Assembly: GCA_947478865.1 (NCBI GenBank)
Contig: CANJXF010000021.1
Span: 1-64,000, forward strand
DNA: 64,000 bases
Source of the DNA: Verrucomicrobiales bacterium
Lineage (GTDB): Bacteria; Verrucomicrobiota; Verrucomicrobiia; Limisphaerales; CANJXF01
Direction: 5' to 3'
Numbering within the stretch: position 1 is the stretch's first letter; every line of letters begins with the position of its first letter. The notes under the pieces were generated by a model. That model searched no databases. It worked only from the letters and a program-made list of their open reading frames with translations, and was not told the origin of the DNA. Below are positions 57,692 to 64,000 of this stretch, one piece after another. Position numbers and translations under genes: made by a program.

Positions 57692-59542
57692 ATGAGCACA
57701 ACAACGAAAACGAAAAAGAAAACGGAACGTTCGGAAATCGGCCAGCCGATGAAAGGTTGCGACATTCTCGTCGAGGCTTTGGAACGCGAAGGGGTGGAAT
57801 GCATCTTCGCCTATCCCGGCGGCGCGAGCATGGAGCTCCATCAGTCGCTCACCCGCTCGAAAATCCGCACGATTCTCCCGCGCCACGAGCAAGGCGGCTC
57901 CTTCGCCGCCGAAGGTTACGCGCGCGCCACCGGCCGGGCCGGCGTTTGCATGGCCACCAGCGGGCCGGGCGCCACTAATTTGATCAGCGCCATCGCCGAT
58001 GCTTACATGGATTCCATCCCGCTCGTCTCGATCACCGGCCAGGTGCCCCAGGCGATGATTGGCAAAGGAGCATTCCAGGAAACCGATTTCTTCGGCATGA
58101 CGTTGCCGATTGTCAAACACAGCTATCTCATCACCGACATTGCGGACATCCCGCGCATCGTCAAAGAAGCGTTCTACATCGCGCAAACCGGCCGCCCCGG
58201 TCCGGTCGTGATCGATTTCCCAAAGAATATTCAGCAGCAAAAGGCGCAGCCGATCTGGCCCAGGACAGTTCATCTGCGCGGCTATAATCCCGACAAGCGC
58301 GCGGACGATCTCGCGTTGAACGAAATCATCGGCCTGATCGAAAAGTCGGAGCGCCCGGTGCTCTACTGCGGCGGCGGCATCATCAGCGGTGAAGCCACGG
58401 CTGAATTGCGCAAGTTCGCGGCCGCAACGCAAATTCCCGTCACGACCACGATCATGGGCTGCGGCGCGTTTCCGGAAACCGATCCCCTCTCCTTGCGCTG
58501 GCTTGGCATGCACGGAACCGCTTATGCCAACTGGGCGGTGAGCGGCGAATTGAAACTTCGCGGCAACGGCGAACCCCCGCAAAAAATCCATGACGGCGCT
58601 GATTTGCTTTTGGCCTTCGGCGTGCGTTTCGACGATCGCGTGACCGGCAAAGTGGATGAATTCTGCAAAACCGGAACGATCGTCCACATCGACATCGACC
58701 AATCCGAGCACAACAAGAATCGCAAGGTCCAACTCGCCATCCAGAGCGACATCAAATACGCGCTGACCCGCCTGAACGAGATGCTTCGCAAGCGCCCCAT
58801 CCAGAAGAAATTCCCCGCGTGGCACAAACAGATTGCCGAGTGGAAAACGCGCGCCCCACTGCGCTACGGCGTGACCGACGAAGTGATTCGCTCCGAGCAC
58901 ATGCGCGATCATCTGAGCGGCAAGGAAAGCGAAGTGATCTTGCCGCAGTATGCCATTGAACTGCTCTACGAATTGACCAAAGGCGACGCGATCATCGCCA
59001 CCGGCGTCGGTCAGCACCAGATGTGGGCCGCGCAATGGTATAAATACAAAAACCCTCGCCAATTGCTCACCAGCGCCGGCCTGGGCGCGATGGGCTATGG
59101 CTACCCTGCCGCGCTCGGCGCGAAGGTGGCGCAACCCGACAAGCAAGTCGTCGATATCGACGGCGATGGATCATTCCTCATGAACGTGCAGGAGCTTGCC
59201 ACCGCGCACATCGAAAAAATTGCTGCGAAAGCGCTGATCTTAAACAACCAGCACCTCGGCATGGTCATGCAATGGGAAGATAATTTTTATCAAGGCAACC
59301 GCGGCCACACCTATTTGGGCGATCCGGAAAACCGCAAGCAGATCTATCCCGACTACATCGCCATGGCCAAGAGTTTCAACGTTCCCGCCGAACGCGTCAT
59401 GTTCAAAAAGGATCTGCGCGCCGCCATGCAGCGCATGCTCGATTCCAAGGAGCCCTACCTGCTCGACGTGATCACGCCCTACACCGAACACGTGTTGCCG
59501 TTCATCAAGGCAGGCGGCACGGTGGCCGACATGATTTATTGA
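57692..59542 (+). CDS. ilvB: Acetolactate synthase large subunit
   Basis: This 616-residue ThDP enzyme joins two pyruvates, or pyruvate and 2-oxobutyrate, in branched-chain amino acid synthesis. The catalytic Glu is in [24 protein letters not shown]-domain and central marks are [19 protein letters not shown] and [11 protein letters not shown]. The ThDP motif is [29 protein letters not shown], and the C-terminal segment is [22 protein letters not shown]. An extra Lys/Thr-rich stretch of about 25 residues lies before the fold. The small subunit gene is not in the window; the CRISPR array follows instead. Expression is controlled by the leader attenuator. Confidence 0.96.
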
Positions 59543-59550
59543 TCCGGGCG

Positions 59551-59591
59551 CGGCGCGAATTCCCATCCTGAACCGATCCGGAATTCCGCCG
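59551..59591. repeat. Imperfect hairpin between ilvB and the CRISPR array
   Basis: CGGCG-C-GAATT (59551-59561) is complementary to AATTCCGCCG (59582-59591) with one bulged C and a 20-nt loop. It lies just past the ilvB stop with no T run, so it is at best a weak terminator or an RNA end-protecting stem. It could also be part of the array leader. Confidence 0.35.
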
Positions 59592-59626
59592 CTCCGCCCC
59601 ATTAAGACGAGGTGGCAAGGCGGTGT

Positions 59627-60257
59627 ACTTTGCCTTGATTCCAATTACGGGGGGGGGCAAATTACAAACTCTTTCCATTAACTTGATACTAATGCTTTGC
59701 CTTGATTCCAATTACGGGGGGGCAAATTTTGGGAGCGGCAATCATGTATCCCAATTCCGCTTTGCCTTGATTCCAATTACGGGGGGGGCAAATTGGCTTG
59801 TCGTTTCAATTCCGTAAAAGCCGAGCTTTGCCTTGATTCCAATTACGGGGGGGGCAAATTGCCTGTTCCGGTCAATTGATACTCCTCGATGCTTTGCCTT
59901 GATTCCAATTACGGGGGGGGGCAAATTATTTAAGCTCCGACGATTGCCCATTACGGAGCTTTGCCTTGATTCCAATTACGGGGGGGGCAAATTATACGTC
60001 GAGATGGTAACCCACTGTTCCGAGCTTTGCCTTGATTCCAATTACGGGGGGGGCAAATTGAAACCGCGCGGCGTGTCGCTGGCATGGACGCTTTGCCTTG
60101 ATTCCAATTACGGGGGGGGCAAATTGATCTTTTCACCCCACTGCTTCACCCATTCGCTTTGCCTTGATTCCAATTACGGGGGGGGCAAATTGACGACTGA
60201 CGTAAGTGATGGAGTTTGATAGCTTTGCCTTGATTCCAATTACGGGGGGGGCAAATT
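59627..60257 (+). CRISPR. CRISPR array, 10 repeats and 9 spacers (type II-C locus)
   Basis: The repeat is 36 nt, starting GCTTTGCCTTGATTCC, then AATTAC, a run of G, and ending GCAAATT. Ten copies begin at 59627, 59694, 59759, 59825, 59891, 59958, 60024, 60090, 60156 and 60222. All nine spacers are exactly 30 nt. The G run is 8 in seven copies, 9 in the first and fifth and 7 in the second. The first copy has A instead of G at position 1. Repeat ends TTTGCC and GGCAAA are inverted. On the plus strand TTGATT (9-14) and CAAATT (31-36) form a promoter-like pair at 16 bp, as in II-C arrays that start crRNAs inside repeats. The plus direction is inferred. Confidence 0.98.
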
Positions 60258-60287
60258 CGGTGGTGAGAAAAGGCCCGTAAACAGGGG

Positions 60288-60623
60288 CTACCATAGCTGA
60301 ATTTGCTCTGGTAAATCCCCCGCTTCTATCTCAGAAGCGGGGGATCCCTGTATCACATGGGATCGTTCCCATTGGGCGCGCGTGATGAAGATGGCCCGAA
60401 CGCTTCCCTCGGGCGGGAGGTTTTTCTTGAGCCGGTCAAGGTGCGTTTCCTGACGTGCAAACGAAACGCAGGCTCGTGCATAAACGCTGAATTGCATCAT
60501 CTGGTATCCGTCATCGAGCAGAAATTTGCGAAAATCAGTCGCCTGCTTGCGCTGCTTGCGCTCCACGACCGGCAAATCAAATGCGACAATCAGCCAACCC
60601 ATTTTGAATTTCTCGGTGTCCAT
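60288..60623 (-). CDS. cas2: CRISPR-associated endoribonuclease Cas2 (type II)
   Basis: The 111-residue protein has the ferredoxin-like Cas2 fold: MGWLIVAFDLPVVERKQRKQATDFRKFLLDDGYQMMQFSVYARAC, then an RLKKNLPPEGSVRAIFITRAQWE segment. The DLP motif supplies the metal-binding Asp. Cas2 forms the spacer-integration complex with Cas1. The gene overlaps the end of cas1 by 34 nt, or by 13 nt if the ATG at 60602 is used. It ends 30 bp from the array. Confidence 0.95.
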   Translation of the reverse strand: MDTEKFKMGWLIVAFDLPVVERKQRKQATDFRKFLLDDGYQMMQFSVYARACVSFARQETHLDRLKKNLPPEGSVRAIFITRAQWERSHVIQGSPASEIEAGDLPEQIQLW

Positions 60624-61507
60624 GGTCTATAGCCTCTCGCCTGGTTTTCCATCACAGAACGACGAAAGCCGCGGATCACTCCTTCGATACAACCTTGGAT
60701 TTCAAGCGTGAAATCGAGATAGTCGATACGCTCCAGCGGAAAGCCTGTAACCCAGCCGCGAAATTCTTTGGTCACTTGCCAATCATTTTCTTCTGAATGC
60801 TTTTTCACCCATTGGATGACGCGCCAATCGACGCAGGGCCGGAAAGGTTCCATCAAATCATAAGCCAACGGGGTGCTGCGCTCGCGGGCGACGTGGGAAA
60901 GGCCGAACGTCGGATCAAGCCCGACCCCGAATAGTTTTTGGAGAACAGTGGAAAGTAAAACAGCATATCCATAGTTGAGCAGATTGTTTAATCCACCACC
61001 CGCGCGTTCACGCACGAAATTCTCTTGGTCCAAAGCGCGGCCAAGAATTTGCCAGAAGCTTTTTGCACAGATGGCTTCTTTGTGCGGCTTTTTTCCAAAG
61101 GCAGTTCGGCGCATCGATTCCAACCGTTCATCGTTCGGAGCGATATGTTCGGCAAGCGACAATTGATTCTGACATTTGGCATCAATTGTCTTCTGCCAAA
61201 GTTGTTCCCTCGTTTTGGGTGAGAGCTTTAAAACGGCGCGAGTGAGAAGTGTATCTGTCGAACGATTGGCTGGGAGAACAAGGCTGACGGGCTTAAACGA
61301 TTCGCAGATGATGAGCGCAACCCCATGCTTGGCGGCTTCGAGGAAAAGGTTGCTGTGAATGGACGCCGAGAAACTGGTGATGATAATGGATGCCACATCC
61401 TCCAGCGGAAGTTTCTTTTCACCTTCCGCCGTCTTACAGATCAACTGTCCGTCTTTGCAGCTAATAGAGCATTGCGGACTGTCTATGCTGACGATGTGGT
61501 AGGACAT
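60590..61507 (-). CDS. cas1: CRISPR-associated integrase Cas1 (type II)
   Basis: The 305-residue protein opens SYHIVSIDSPQCSISCKDGQLICK, as type II Cas1 proteins do. It has the N-terminal beta domain with VASIIITSFSASIHSNLF and the alpha-helical catalytic domain with INNLLNYGYAVLLSTVLQKLFGVGLDPTFG-like signature (here NNLLNYGYAVLLSTVLQKL) and LAYDLMEPFRPCVD. The Glu, His and Asp metal ligands are expected in RDREGAGG-like, SHVARE and DLMEP segments. It integrates new spacers with Cas2. Its start overlaps the cas9 end by 25 nt, so all three cas genes are coupled. Confidence 0.95.
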   Translation of the reverse strand: MSYHIVSIDSPQCSISCKDGQLICKTAEGEKKLPLEDVASIIITSFSASIHSNLFLEAAKHGVALIICESFKPVSLVLPANRSTDTLLTRAVLKLSPKTREQLWQKTIDAKCQNQLSLAEHIAPNDERLESMRRTAFGKKPHKEAICAKSFWQILGRALDQENFVRERAGGGLNNLLNYGYAVLLSTVLQKLFGVGLDPTFGLSHVARERSTPLAYDLMEPFRPCVDWRVIQWVKKHSEENDWQVTKEFRGWVTGFPLERIDYLDFTLEIQGCIEGVIRGFRRSVMENQARGYRPWTPRNSKWVG

Positions 61508-64000
61508 GCGATCCCAGTCAGAGGCGTCTTAATCGGCTGCATTCCGTTCTTCAGCAGGCTACCGAGAAGCACGTTAATTTTATGCCCCTCTGTTTTATTC
61601 TTCAACCGAACAACGTCTGGCGATCCAATATCGACGGCCATGCCAGCGGCGTTATTTTTCGCGGAGAAAACTCTCCAAATGCCTTTGTAATTTCCTGTCG
61701 GAATTCGAATGATTTGCCCATTCCGTAAAACTCGTGGAAGTTTTTTTCCATTGGATTCTTTTAATTCAGATAACCGGGTCCACACTTTGTGAAATGGAAT
61801 AATTGTTGGCTGTGGATCAAGAGCCACGCCGAAGTTATCAGGAATTACGAGCGCGCCTTTTAAGTCCTTCAGCTTGCTTTTGCCATCGGGAGGATTGACC
61901 CCAAGCAATTTCATCACTTTCTCAGTTGTCGTCTTGGTAACGTGTTTCCCGTCCAATCCGCGCATGGTTTGTTCTATAGTCGCCTCACCATCTTTCACAG
62001 AAACAACACGCCACGTATTCTGTTCGACACGCAGTCCATCCATGCGTGCCGGTATATGTTGAACCACCCGCTTTTCAGCCAATCGTTGCCGGATTTGTTC
62101 TTTCAACTTGTCGGCAAGATCGCGCATACGGAATTCACCCTTTGAATCCTTGCCAAAGATATTCAAAGCAATTAATTCGCGTTGTTCGGCTTCACTCCAT
62201 CGGCGTCTAACAATGAGTTCCCACGCGCGACCATTGTTTGGAATAAAATGCGAGGCTAGTCCAAGGACACATGCGTCCAGCGCATGATGCAGATGAGTAA
62301 TATCGCGAATGTCTGTTTTGGTTTTGACCCGTTTACATAGCTTGCCTTTTTCGTCGGTGTATTCCTCCATTACTTGCGGACATGCCAATCCCAGACAACC
62401 AAGAACGTTCCAAGCTTTGCGAACTGATCCTGTCACCGAGCCAGGCAAAGAAATAATTACAGGTGGCTTGTCGCAATCAGAGAAAGCTTTTTTCAGAATT
62501 TGCGCCCCGAGACGAACTAGTTGAGATGTTTTAGTTAAGTCGCCGGGAGTGAATTCTTTTTCCTCATAAGTCGGAAGCAGCAATAGCGCTTTGCGTTTTT
62601 TCTTTCTGCGCTTGTCGTCATCGTGACCTTTGTAGCATTCCAAACCTTCCACGAATTGTCTGAAGCGCGTAAGACTAACAATGGAGAGCTGCGGCATATC
62701 CGGCACCGGTTTGCCTTGTTCTTGTTCTACGAATTGCCAAGCCGTGCGTTTGCCCTTCCATCTATTTACAGAGGAATAAGTGACGACCAAAGAATCGAGA
62801 GAATCAGAGGCACGGTCGGAGCGAGGAACAATGTGGTCTTTGTCCACCTGACGATTCAATAAATCAAAGGCATCGTAGGGTTTATCAGTGTAAGGACAAA
62901 TCCAACCGAGGTCCTCCGCGATGCGACCTTTGCGAATTAACCCGGCGGTGATCGGAACGGACCGGCCATTGATCTTCTTTTCCGAGAAGGCTTCTTCCAG
63001 CTTGGTTGCGACGGAATGATGATTGGCGATTCGCTGTCCTAAATCCTGCGCTTTTTCTTTCGCGGTTTTCCCCGACATTTCACGCAAATCGCGATTTACT
63101 TCAATGGTGATTTGACCAACCCGATTTTTATCCTCGTTCGCATATTCCTTAACGATGTCAGCCAATAATCTTTCTAGGATAAGCAAGCGATGTCGAACCA
63201 AGTGATTGTTCGTCTGCTCGGCAATACTTCGATTCAATTGGGCTTGTCGCATTTTGTCCGTGACGAAAAGGCAGCCGCCCTCTTCTTTGGGATGTTTGCC
63301 CGCCATGACTTCTTGGTGCGACTTGGCGAGTAGCGCACGGGAATAGGTGGCTCGTTGTGGAAGCTTGAGCACGCTAAACGATTCTTTGAGAAAATTTTCG
63401 AGCGACGTTTGTTTGTCCTTTTTTCGGCCTTTGGTATTCGCGCTGTCGCATTGCTTTTGCACTTCCGCGTCAAACGCTGCGGTGGATTCACCGATTGATT
63501 TCAACTGCTCGCGAAATTGGGCGAGGGAAAAAGATTTACCGCGCCGCCATTGCCCGCGCACACGTTTCTGCAATCGTTCGGGCAGCAACGCCCAATAGGT
63601 TTTTAGTTTGTCGGAGGTTTCTAATTTTTTCGCCGGATCGAGGAGCAACGCATCCTTCGCGTCCGGGTGCATGAGCATCGTTTCGAGATTGTCGCGCTGG
63701 CATTTGGTTAGAGAGCGAACGGTTTCTTTCAATTCTTTCGCCGTCAAATGACCGCGCTCACGCATGGTTTTATCAATCGCTTTCCGCTCAGCAACGGTGA
63801 GCGAGCGCAATTCTTTTTCGCCCGCGCTGGCGACGCGGATGTTCGCCAGTTGCATCGCCCAACGGAAGTTGAGGAATTCAGGACAATTGCGGGTAGGAAT
63901 TTTTTCACCGCTAATCGGGCAAATCGAAATAATGCGGTTATCGAATCGTGGAACCAGTTGACCAAAGAGCAATCCGCCTTCGTAACGAGTGGGCAGCTTG
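61483..64000 (-). CDS. cas9: Cas9 (type II-C), 3' part, continues past the right edge
   Basis: About 839 codons are visible and the frame is open to the edge (KLPTRYEGGLLFGQLVPRF). RuvC-II is ITIEVNRD with its Glu; the HNH domain has VDKDHIVPRSDRASDSLDSLVVTYSSVNRWKGKRTA; RuvC-III is THLHHALDACVLGLAS with catalytic His/Asp. The C-terminal 200 residues are the PAM-interacting region, ending GIACPTTSSA. RuvC-I, bridge helix and start lie outside the window. Two Cys-containing turns (ISICPISGEK and GWICPYTDK) may bind zinc. With cas1 and cas2 and no csn2 or cas4, the subtype is II-C. All visible catalytic motifs are intact. Confidence 0.97.
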   Translation of the reverse strand, partial: KLPTRYEGGLLFGQLVPRFDNRIISICPISGEKIPTRNCPEFLNFRWAMQLANIRVASAGEKELRSLTVAERKAIDKTMRERGHLTAKELKETVRSLTKCQRDNLETMLMHPDAKDALLLDPAKKLETSDKLKTYWALLPERLQKRVRGQWRRGKSFSLAQFREQLKSIGESTAAFDAEVQKQCDSANTKGRKKDKQTSLENFLKESFSVLKLPQRATYSRALLAKSHQEVMAGKHPKEEGGCLFVTDKMRQAQLNRSIAEQTNNHLVRHRLLILERLLADIVKEYANEDKNRVGQITIEVNRDLREMSGKTAKEKAQDLGQRIANHHSVATKLEEAFSEKKINGRSVPITAGLIRKGRIAEDLGWICPYTDKPYDAFDLLNRQVDKDHIVPRSDRASDSLDSLVVTYSSVNRWKGKRTAWQFVEQEQGKPVPDMPQLSIVSLTRFRQFVEGLECYKGHDDDKRRKKKRKALLLLPTYEEKEFTPGDLTKTSQLVRLGAQILKKAFSDCDKPPVIISLPGSVTGSVRKAWNVLGCLGLACPQVMEEYTDEKGKLCKRVKTKTDIRDITHLHHALDACVLGLASHFIPNNGRAWELIVRRRWSEAEQRELIALNIFGKDSKGEFRMRDLADKLKEQIRQRLAEKRVVQHIPARMDGLRVEQNTWRVVSVKDGEATIEQTMRGLDGKHVTKTTTEKVMKLLGVNPPDGKSKLKDLKGALVIPDNFGVALDPQPTIIPFHKVWTRLSELKESNGKKLPRVLRNGQIIRIPTGNYKGIWRVFSAKNNAAGMAVDIGSPDVVRLKNKTEGHKINVLLGSLLKNGMQPIKTPLTGIACPTTSSA

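Follow-up and report, generated by a model that had tools for sequence, protein, structure and literature searches.

Every repeat of the CRISPR array studied here most probably carries its own sigma-70-like promoter on the plus strand, i.e., the crRNA strand, in a locus of type II-C. The signal of these repeat-borne promoters is weak in the window itself (the whole stretch of 64,000 nucleotides analysed, positions 1 to 64,000 of contig CANJXF010000021.1 from a Verrucomicrobiales bacterium) and strong across the repeat family. The repeat would be divided, with positions 1-16 serving tracrRNA and Cas9 and positions 17-36 free of pairing and held by the -10 box. If so, one 36-nt repeat is split into an RNA-pairing half and a promoter half, and repeat-borne crRNA promoters, mapped in two proteobacterial-type hosts, would be extended to a large verrucomicrobial family. 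The parts of the locus are as follows.

59627 to 60257, plus strand: CRISPR array of 10 repeats and 9 spacers of 30 nt, from the repeat search and spacer extraction
60288 to 60623, minus strand: cas2, 111 aa (PF09827, E 4.8e-18; TIGR01573, 65.0 bits, cut-off 24.5)
60590 to 61507, minus strand: cas1 of type II, 305 aa (PF01867; TIGR03639 type II Cas1, 160.4 bits, cut-off 120)
61483 to 64000, minus strand, continuing to base 64764 of contig G000:C21: cas9, 1,093 aa (TIGR01865)
64789 to 64903 of contig C21 (L009:4590-4704), plus strand, outside the window: tracrRNA gene, from the anti-repeat and terminator

The genes cas2, cas1 and cas9 are all leftward and contiguous, with no other gene between the array and cas9, and the single Cas1 match in the source genome is at the array locus. 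TIGR01865 gave 141.7 bits (cut-off 100) with the window part of cas9, and the full gene was read from the contig beyond the window (ORF L009:1284-4565, 1,093 aa). The operon consists of three genes, cas9-cas1-cas2, without csn2 or cas4 on a contig that stops 399 bp past the cas9 start, and the locus is a type II-C CRISPR-Cas9 system. An Rfam scan over the region returned three matches, all far under the gathering score, and a comparison of the array with phage at blastn sensitivity returned none. A lone repeat-like sequence (89% identity over 33 nt, minus strand) lies at G000:C98:1240-1272 (L010), on a contig other than the array's and in a stretch that was read without cas genes.

The strand, the repeat anatomy and the conservation pattern are established by the sequence. 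The anti-repeat GGAATCAAGACAAAG lies on the plus strand just upstream of cas9; downstream of it come structured sequence and a hairpin that carries a T-run. With the plus-strand repeat it forms 14 of 15 pairs over positions 2-16 (one mismatch, -20.4 kcal/mol), while its pairing with the minus-strand repeat is scattered (-12.5 kcal/mol). The same arrangement beside cas9 recurs in the 32 loci used. From the orientation of the anti-repeat, the crRNA would therefore be transcribed from the plus strand towards the cas genes, as in the II-C arrangement (PMC3936727), and judged from the sequence only, by the anti-repeat and the tracrRNA direction, the array is oriented opposite to the cas operon. The original prediction, that crRNA transcription runs against the leftward cas genes and converges on them, thus appears to stand. 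A tracrRNA at the cas2-side array end (60258-60345), considered because of a hairpin there, was dropped once the cas9-side anti-repeat with its terminator had come to light here and in 31 further loci.

The predicted tracrRNA -10 box ends 6-8 nt before GAATC in 23 of the 32 loci; in the remaining nine the lineage matrix described below chose a -10 box elsewhere, 1 to 20 nt away. With the box in that place the predicted tracrRNA begins at the anti-repeat itself, and the 3' half of the repeat is therefore left without a pairing partner. The predicted anti-repeat covers 15-16 nt only, which as regards interference without RNase III, the situation in Neisseria, is suggestive only. Just upstream of the window's predicted tracrRNA start lies AATTTCCCC, which can pair with the 3' end of the repeat (-17.6 kcal/mol). 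A longer tracrRNA, if it exists, could pair with the repeat end through this sequence, and this counts against the promoter reading.

The repeat is 36 nt in its 8-G form. As the original prediction described, TTGATT (repeat positions 9-14) and the plus-strand repeat-end CAAATT (positions 31-36) are present in all ten repeats; the 16-bp spacing that it gave for each of them holds in seven, being 17 bp in copies 1 and 5 and 15 bp in copy 2. The G-run of copies 1-10 measures 9, 7, 8, 8, 9, 8, 8, 8, 8 and 8, and its variation between 7 and 9 makes the spacing inconstant. The homopolymers of 7 or 9 Gs in three of the ten copies could be caused by slippage or by assembly error. The individual elements of the array are the following.

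59627 to 59663, plus strand: first repeat, the cas-distal 'extra' one, with G1 changed to A and nine Gs; -10 box 59658-59663, spacing 17
59694 to 59728, plus strand: repeat 2, with seven Gs; -10 box 59723-59728, spacing 15
59767 to 59794, plus strand: predicted promoter of repeat 3, as an example; -35 box TTGATT 59767-59772, 16 bp, -10 box CAAATT 59789-59794
60222 to 60257, plus strand: last repeat, adjoining cas2, intact, from the repeat search; probably the acquisition end

TTGATT would act as the -35 box and at the same time form part of the segment that pairs with tracrRNA. The last six bases, CAAATT, would be the -10 box, so that transcription would start about 7 nt inside the following spacer; for repeat 3 we infer such a start, about 7 nt into its spacer, from the usual distance between -10 and +1. 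Each transcript would hold a guide of about 24 nt followed by the next repeat, with positions 1-16 of that repeat pairing with tracrRNA, and transcription of the array would be directed at the leftward cas2-cas1-cas9. Promoter activity, start sites, crRNA ends and the extent to which RNase III is needed are to be understood as predicted.

Taken alone, the pair TTGATT/CAAATT does no better than chance when held against the E. coli consensus TTGACA/TATAAT and is no evidence by itself. It agrees with the consensus at 7 of 12 positions (3 of 6 for CAAATT against TATAAT), 47% of 5,000 shuffled repeats equal this match on either strand, and pairs of equal quality occur in the window about 25 times per kb per strand. 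A stock promoter scan listed no site within the array. The spacers bear no mark of a start, since purines are not enriched at spacer nt 6-9 among 475 unique spacers, and the idea of a selection mark at the predicted start was dropped. The pair exceeds chance only once the relatives of the repeat are included.

Relatives were collected by searches that used the repeat 3' end in neither case. The search with Cas9 had matches in 22 of the 320 genomes sampled from the order and, in addition, in 6 named loci; with the repeat core CTTTGCCTTGATTC, 50 of 384 genomes from the class and 29 of 387 from the phylum matched, in draws that overlap. The conservation set comprised 30 distinct repeats from the fetched loci; duplicate loci (L001-L008, L011, L012, L015, L018, L036) were excluded from the counts, as were L050 (matrix) and the 34-nt repeat variant of L029. 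This variant belongs to a second array beside the 36-nt array in the same locus; it has lost two bases and kept TATAAT, with 14 bp between the -35 and -10 boxes.

In the 30 repeats positions 1-15 are nearly fixed, 16-18 are mostly so and 19-31 mostly vary, with 19-29 variable. At the end of the repeat A32 and T36 are each found in 30 of 30 and A34 in 27 of 30, counts taken over related repeats and therefore not 30 independent observations, and position 33 between them is near random (A11 G8 T7 C4). A32 and T36 correspond to -11A and -7T, the bases conserved most strongly in a -10 box. The repeat thereby offers a test without RNA, namely an invariant -11A and -7T in the part of the repeat untouched by tracrRNA. 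The design claimed originally, a II-C promoter at each repeat end opposite to the cas genes, is favoured by this invariance outside the predicted tracrRNA pairing. Compared with TATAAT, three repeat ends are exact, four agree at 5 of 6 positions, ten at 4 and 13, the window's included, at 3; the repeat ends match it at 3.9 of 6 positions on average, whereas shuffled repeat tails average 1.59 and the best of 5,000 shuffles reaches 2.27. The hexamer that best fits the repeat ends is CAAAAT, TATAAT being 17th of 4,096, and the family consensus of the last six bases is yAnAnT. Twenty single sites were also fetched, five of which were judged from positions 17-31 to be family repeats, and all five of these later finds keep A32 and T36. 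L067 and L068, with about 18 nt in common and no AnnnnT end, were placed outside the family, which is a judgement.

A lineage matrix was built from the 32 tracrRNA promoters, with no repeat included. The window repeat scores 10.24 on it, against a median of 10.93 for the tracrRNA promoters and 12.95 for the window's own, and the tracrRNA scores are somewhat flattered since the matrix was seeded with the sigma-70 consensus and picks the best site in each locus. The score of the window repeat is reached by 0.03% of 127,938 window positions and by 0.75% of 4,000 shuffled repeats. Each of the ten window copies qualifies as a candidate (9.54-11.04), repeat 2 being the lowest at 9.54, with 10.65 for a shifted AATTTT. 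Across the family, 25 of the 30 repeats fall in the top 0.05% of window positions and the other five at 0.11%-1.2%.

In place of a promoter in each repeat, a promoter located before 59627, or read-through out of the gene ending at 59542, could yield a single pre-crRNA that RNase III cuts, the motif then being a by-product. A same-strand open gene (57692-59542) does end 84 bp short of the array, the gap has no listed terminator-like site, and the -10 box of the window is weak. Even so we regard this explanation as improbable, because the standard repeat scores 10.24 and the best candidate directly before the array 3.86, no common sequence was noticed by eye in the upstream flanks, which also have little structure (2 of 24 folds at p <= 0.05, the window not among them), the predicted anti-repeat measures only 15-16 nt, and a by-product leaves A32 and T36 in 30 of 30 repeats unexplained. 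That the crRNAs are transcribed jointly with the cas genes, on the minus strand, has very little probability. The cas genes do lie on that strand and a structured region (60258-60345) follows the array, but the anti-repeat and terminator beside cas9, recurring in 32 loci, fix the plus strand, and no minus-strand candidate scoring at least 7 is present in 59500-60300. A lone upstream start and minus-strand crRNAs were the two outcomes named beforehand as contradicting the original prediction, and both now appear unlikely from these scores.

The end of the repeat (A32, A34, T36) might also be held by Cas1-Cas2 integration or by repeat duplication instead of RNA polymerase. It is the repeat-spacer junction, the site of integration, and GGCAAA at positions 29-34 mirrors TTTGCC at 3-8 in many repeats, an inverted repeat that the integrase might need and with which A32 and A34 also agree. 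Neither T36 nor the free position 33 agrees with it: such an inverted repeat would fix position 33 like its neighbours 32 and 34, T36 is without a partner in G1, and the repeats ending in TATAAT break the mirror and still keep A32, A34 and T36. The invariant pair fits instead the two best-conserved positions of a -10 box, and integration is an unlikely cause of the pattern.

Promoters in the repeats have been described for other type II-C systems, so the window system joins a known design. They are stated as a II-C rule in reviews (PMC12080349, PMC12638026, PMC13187072). In Campylobacter jejuni crRNAs have promoters inside each repeat and undergo one RNase III cut (Dugar et al. 2013, PMC3656092); that system resembles the present one in having cas9-cas1-cas2 only and a -10 box within the 3' portion of every repeat. 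Its starts were mapped and its RNase III cut lies in the repeat, whereas both are predictions for the window, which also has a weaker -10 box and a predicted anti-repeat of only about 15-16 nt. The II-C system of Neisseria meningitidis likewise has repeat-end promoters (Zhang et al. 2013, through PMC12638026, PMC7038990 and PMC13187072), an array opposite to cas and three cas genes, but its repeat sequence is another one and the -10 box of the window is further from the consensus. In Clostridium cellulolyticum II-C the array is also transcribed opposite to cas and the terminal nine repeat nucleotides resemble an extended -10 (PMC7038990); RNA-seq is available for that system, and its repeats belong to another family. 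Our literature search returned no paper combining Verrucomicrobia, Cas9, tracrRNA and type II-C, and the repeat core TTTGCCTTGATTC was met in print in one paper only, on unrelated cell biology.

The polarity of the arrays in the window family, as read from their sequences, agrees with that of published II-C arrays, in which spacers enter at the last repeat and most mutations of the extra first repeat fall in its first 15 nt, this repeat being thought to be retained as the promoter of the first spacer (PMC12080349). Changed first, i.e., cas-distal, repeats are seen in the window (position 1, nine Gs), L017 (17, 24), L046 (8), L048 (7) and L050 (1, 3), and a truncated extra repeat one unit upstream in L028, L040, L041, L043 and L053 (25 arrays examined). 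The truncated repeats match in their 3' half at 16-20 of 20 positions and in their 5' half at 1-13 of 16. In the mutated first repeats the last six bases are kept or nearly kept in 10 of 10, and changes fall in positions 1-16 in 9 of 10. The last repeats are unchanged except in L029 (array junction) and L055 (assembly gap). Upstream matches below p 0.05 in L021 and L056 have the better 5' half and do not fit the pattern. The loss of the 5' half could also be caused by erosion from the array edge, from which the same asymmetry is expected. The locus L028 has a cas9 match with one in-frame TGA and a repeat with TTGGTT for TTGATT, and its tracrRNA was not found with the anti-repeat pattern, which suggests a decaying or divergent system.

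The cas2-side end of the array, where acquisition probably takes place, is predicted to fold with its flank.

60250 to 60307, plus strand: hairpin to which the last repeat contributes its final 8 nt, and the 3' flank with the cas2 3' end the remainder (GGCAAATTCGG...CTGAATTTGCT), from the fold z-score

Its z-score is -4.3, and -4.0 with dinucleotide shuffles. Folded together with the 3' half of the repeat, the 3' flank exceeds its dinucleotide shuffles in stability (p <= 0.05) in 23 of 28 arrays, L040, L042, L046, L049 and L056 being those without a significant fold; L055 (assembly gap), L048 and the inner part of L023 were excluded from the flank tests. A hairpin of the II-A leader-repeat type upstream of the first repeat was not found, the upstream flank and first repeat giving 2 of 24 folds at p <= 0.05 and p 0.20 in the window; an upstream hairpin predicted at 59550-59592 was set aside, its fold not being significant. 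The 3' flank contains an inverted partial copy of its own repeat end in 9 of 28 arrays (p < 0.05; window p 0.052), with 0 of 18 for the upstream control and 0 of 28 for the direct orientation. Flanks also fit their own repeat better than others (mean 7.11 vs 5.40; 0 of 10,000 permutations; direct-orientation control p 0.79). GTAA stands exactly at +9 in 10 of the 31 flank rows listed. Hairpins with the 3' half of the last repeat directly after the array were noted in the window, L013, L020, L021, L023, L026, L028, L031, L044 and L057.

It is possible, though rather doubtful, that the acquisition end acts as a mirrored leader, in which the 3' flank folds with the promoter-bearing 3' half of the last repeat and tracks the repeat by lineage. 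The hairpin would leave the first 16 nt of the repeat free for tracrRNA and in this way might set the 3' end of the newest crRNA and protect it. It would then be the opposite-end counterpart of the II-A leader-repeat hairpin that favours the newest spacer, and could shield the convergent cas genes from the promoter of the last repeat. If functional, the hairpin shows how transcription from the final repeat is kept out of cas2 in arrays where every repeat has a promoter, and perhaps how the most recent guide gains favour. A simpler possibility is an insulator between convergent units. In II-A and several type VI systems the acquisition-side flank likewise folds with the adjacent repeat, but there the hairpin lies 5' of the first repeat and in the window 3' of the last one, on the cas2 side (PMC13187072). 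The published search for II-C hairpins, as described in PMC12080349, covered the upstream side of the array, no paper on a 3'-side II-C array hairpin was found in the open-access literature, and the hairpin at the cas2-side end may be new.

A few further structures were observed around the arrays. A perfect 13-bp inverted repeat lies at 60315-60345 within the 3' end of cas2, and by eye similar hairpins are present in L017, L035, L054 and L055 and absent in L014 and L042. Antisense to the 3' end of cas9 in L020 (6257-6361, plus strand) there is a crRNA-like element with a 30-nt guide-like stretch, the exact first 16 nt of the repeat, a strong hairpin and a T-rich tail; a convincing self-target was not found within its own locus, and the element could act as a solo guide RNA. 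Long perfect or near-perfect inverted repeats, noted by eye at most 100 nt upstream of the array in L020, L021 and L023, resemble the insulating hairpins published for II-C (PMC12080349).
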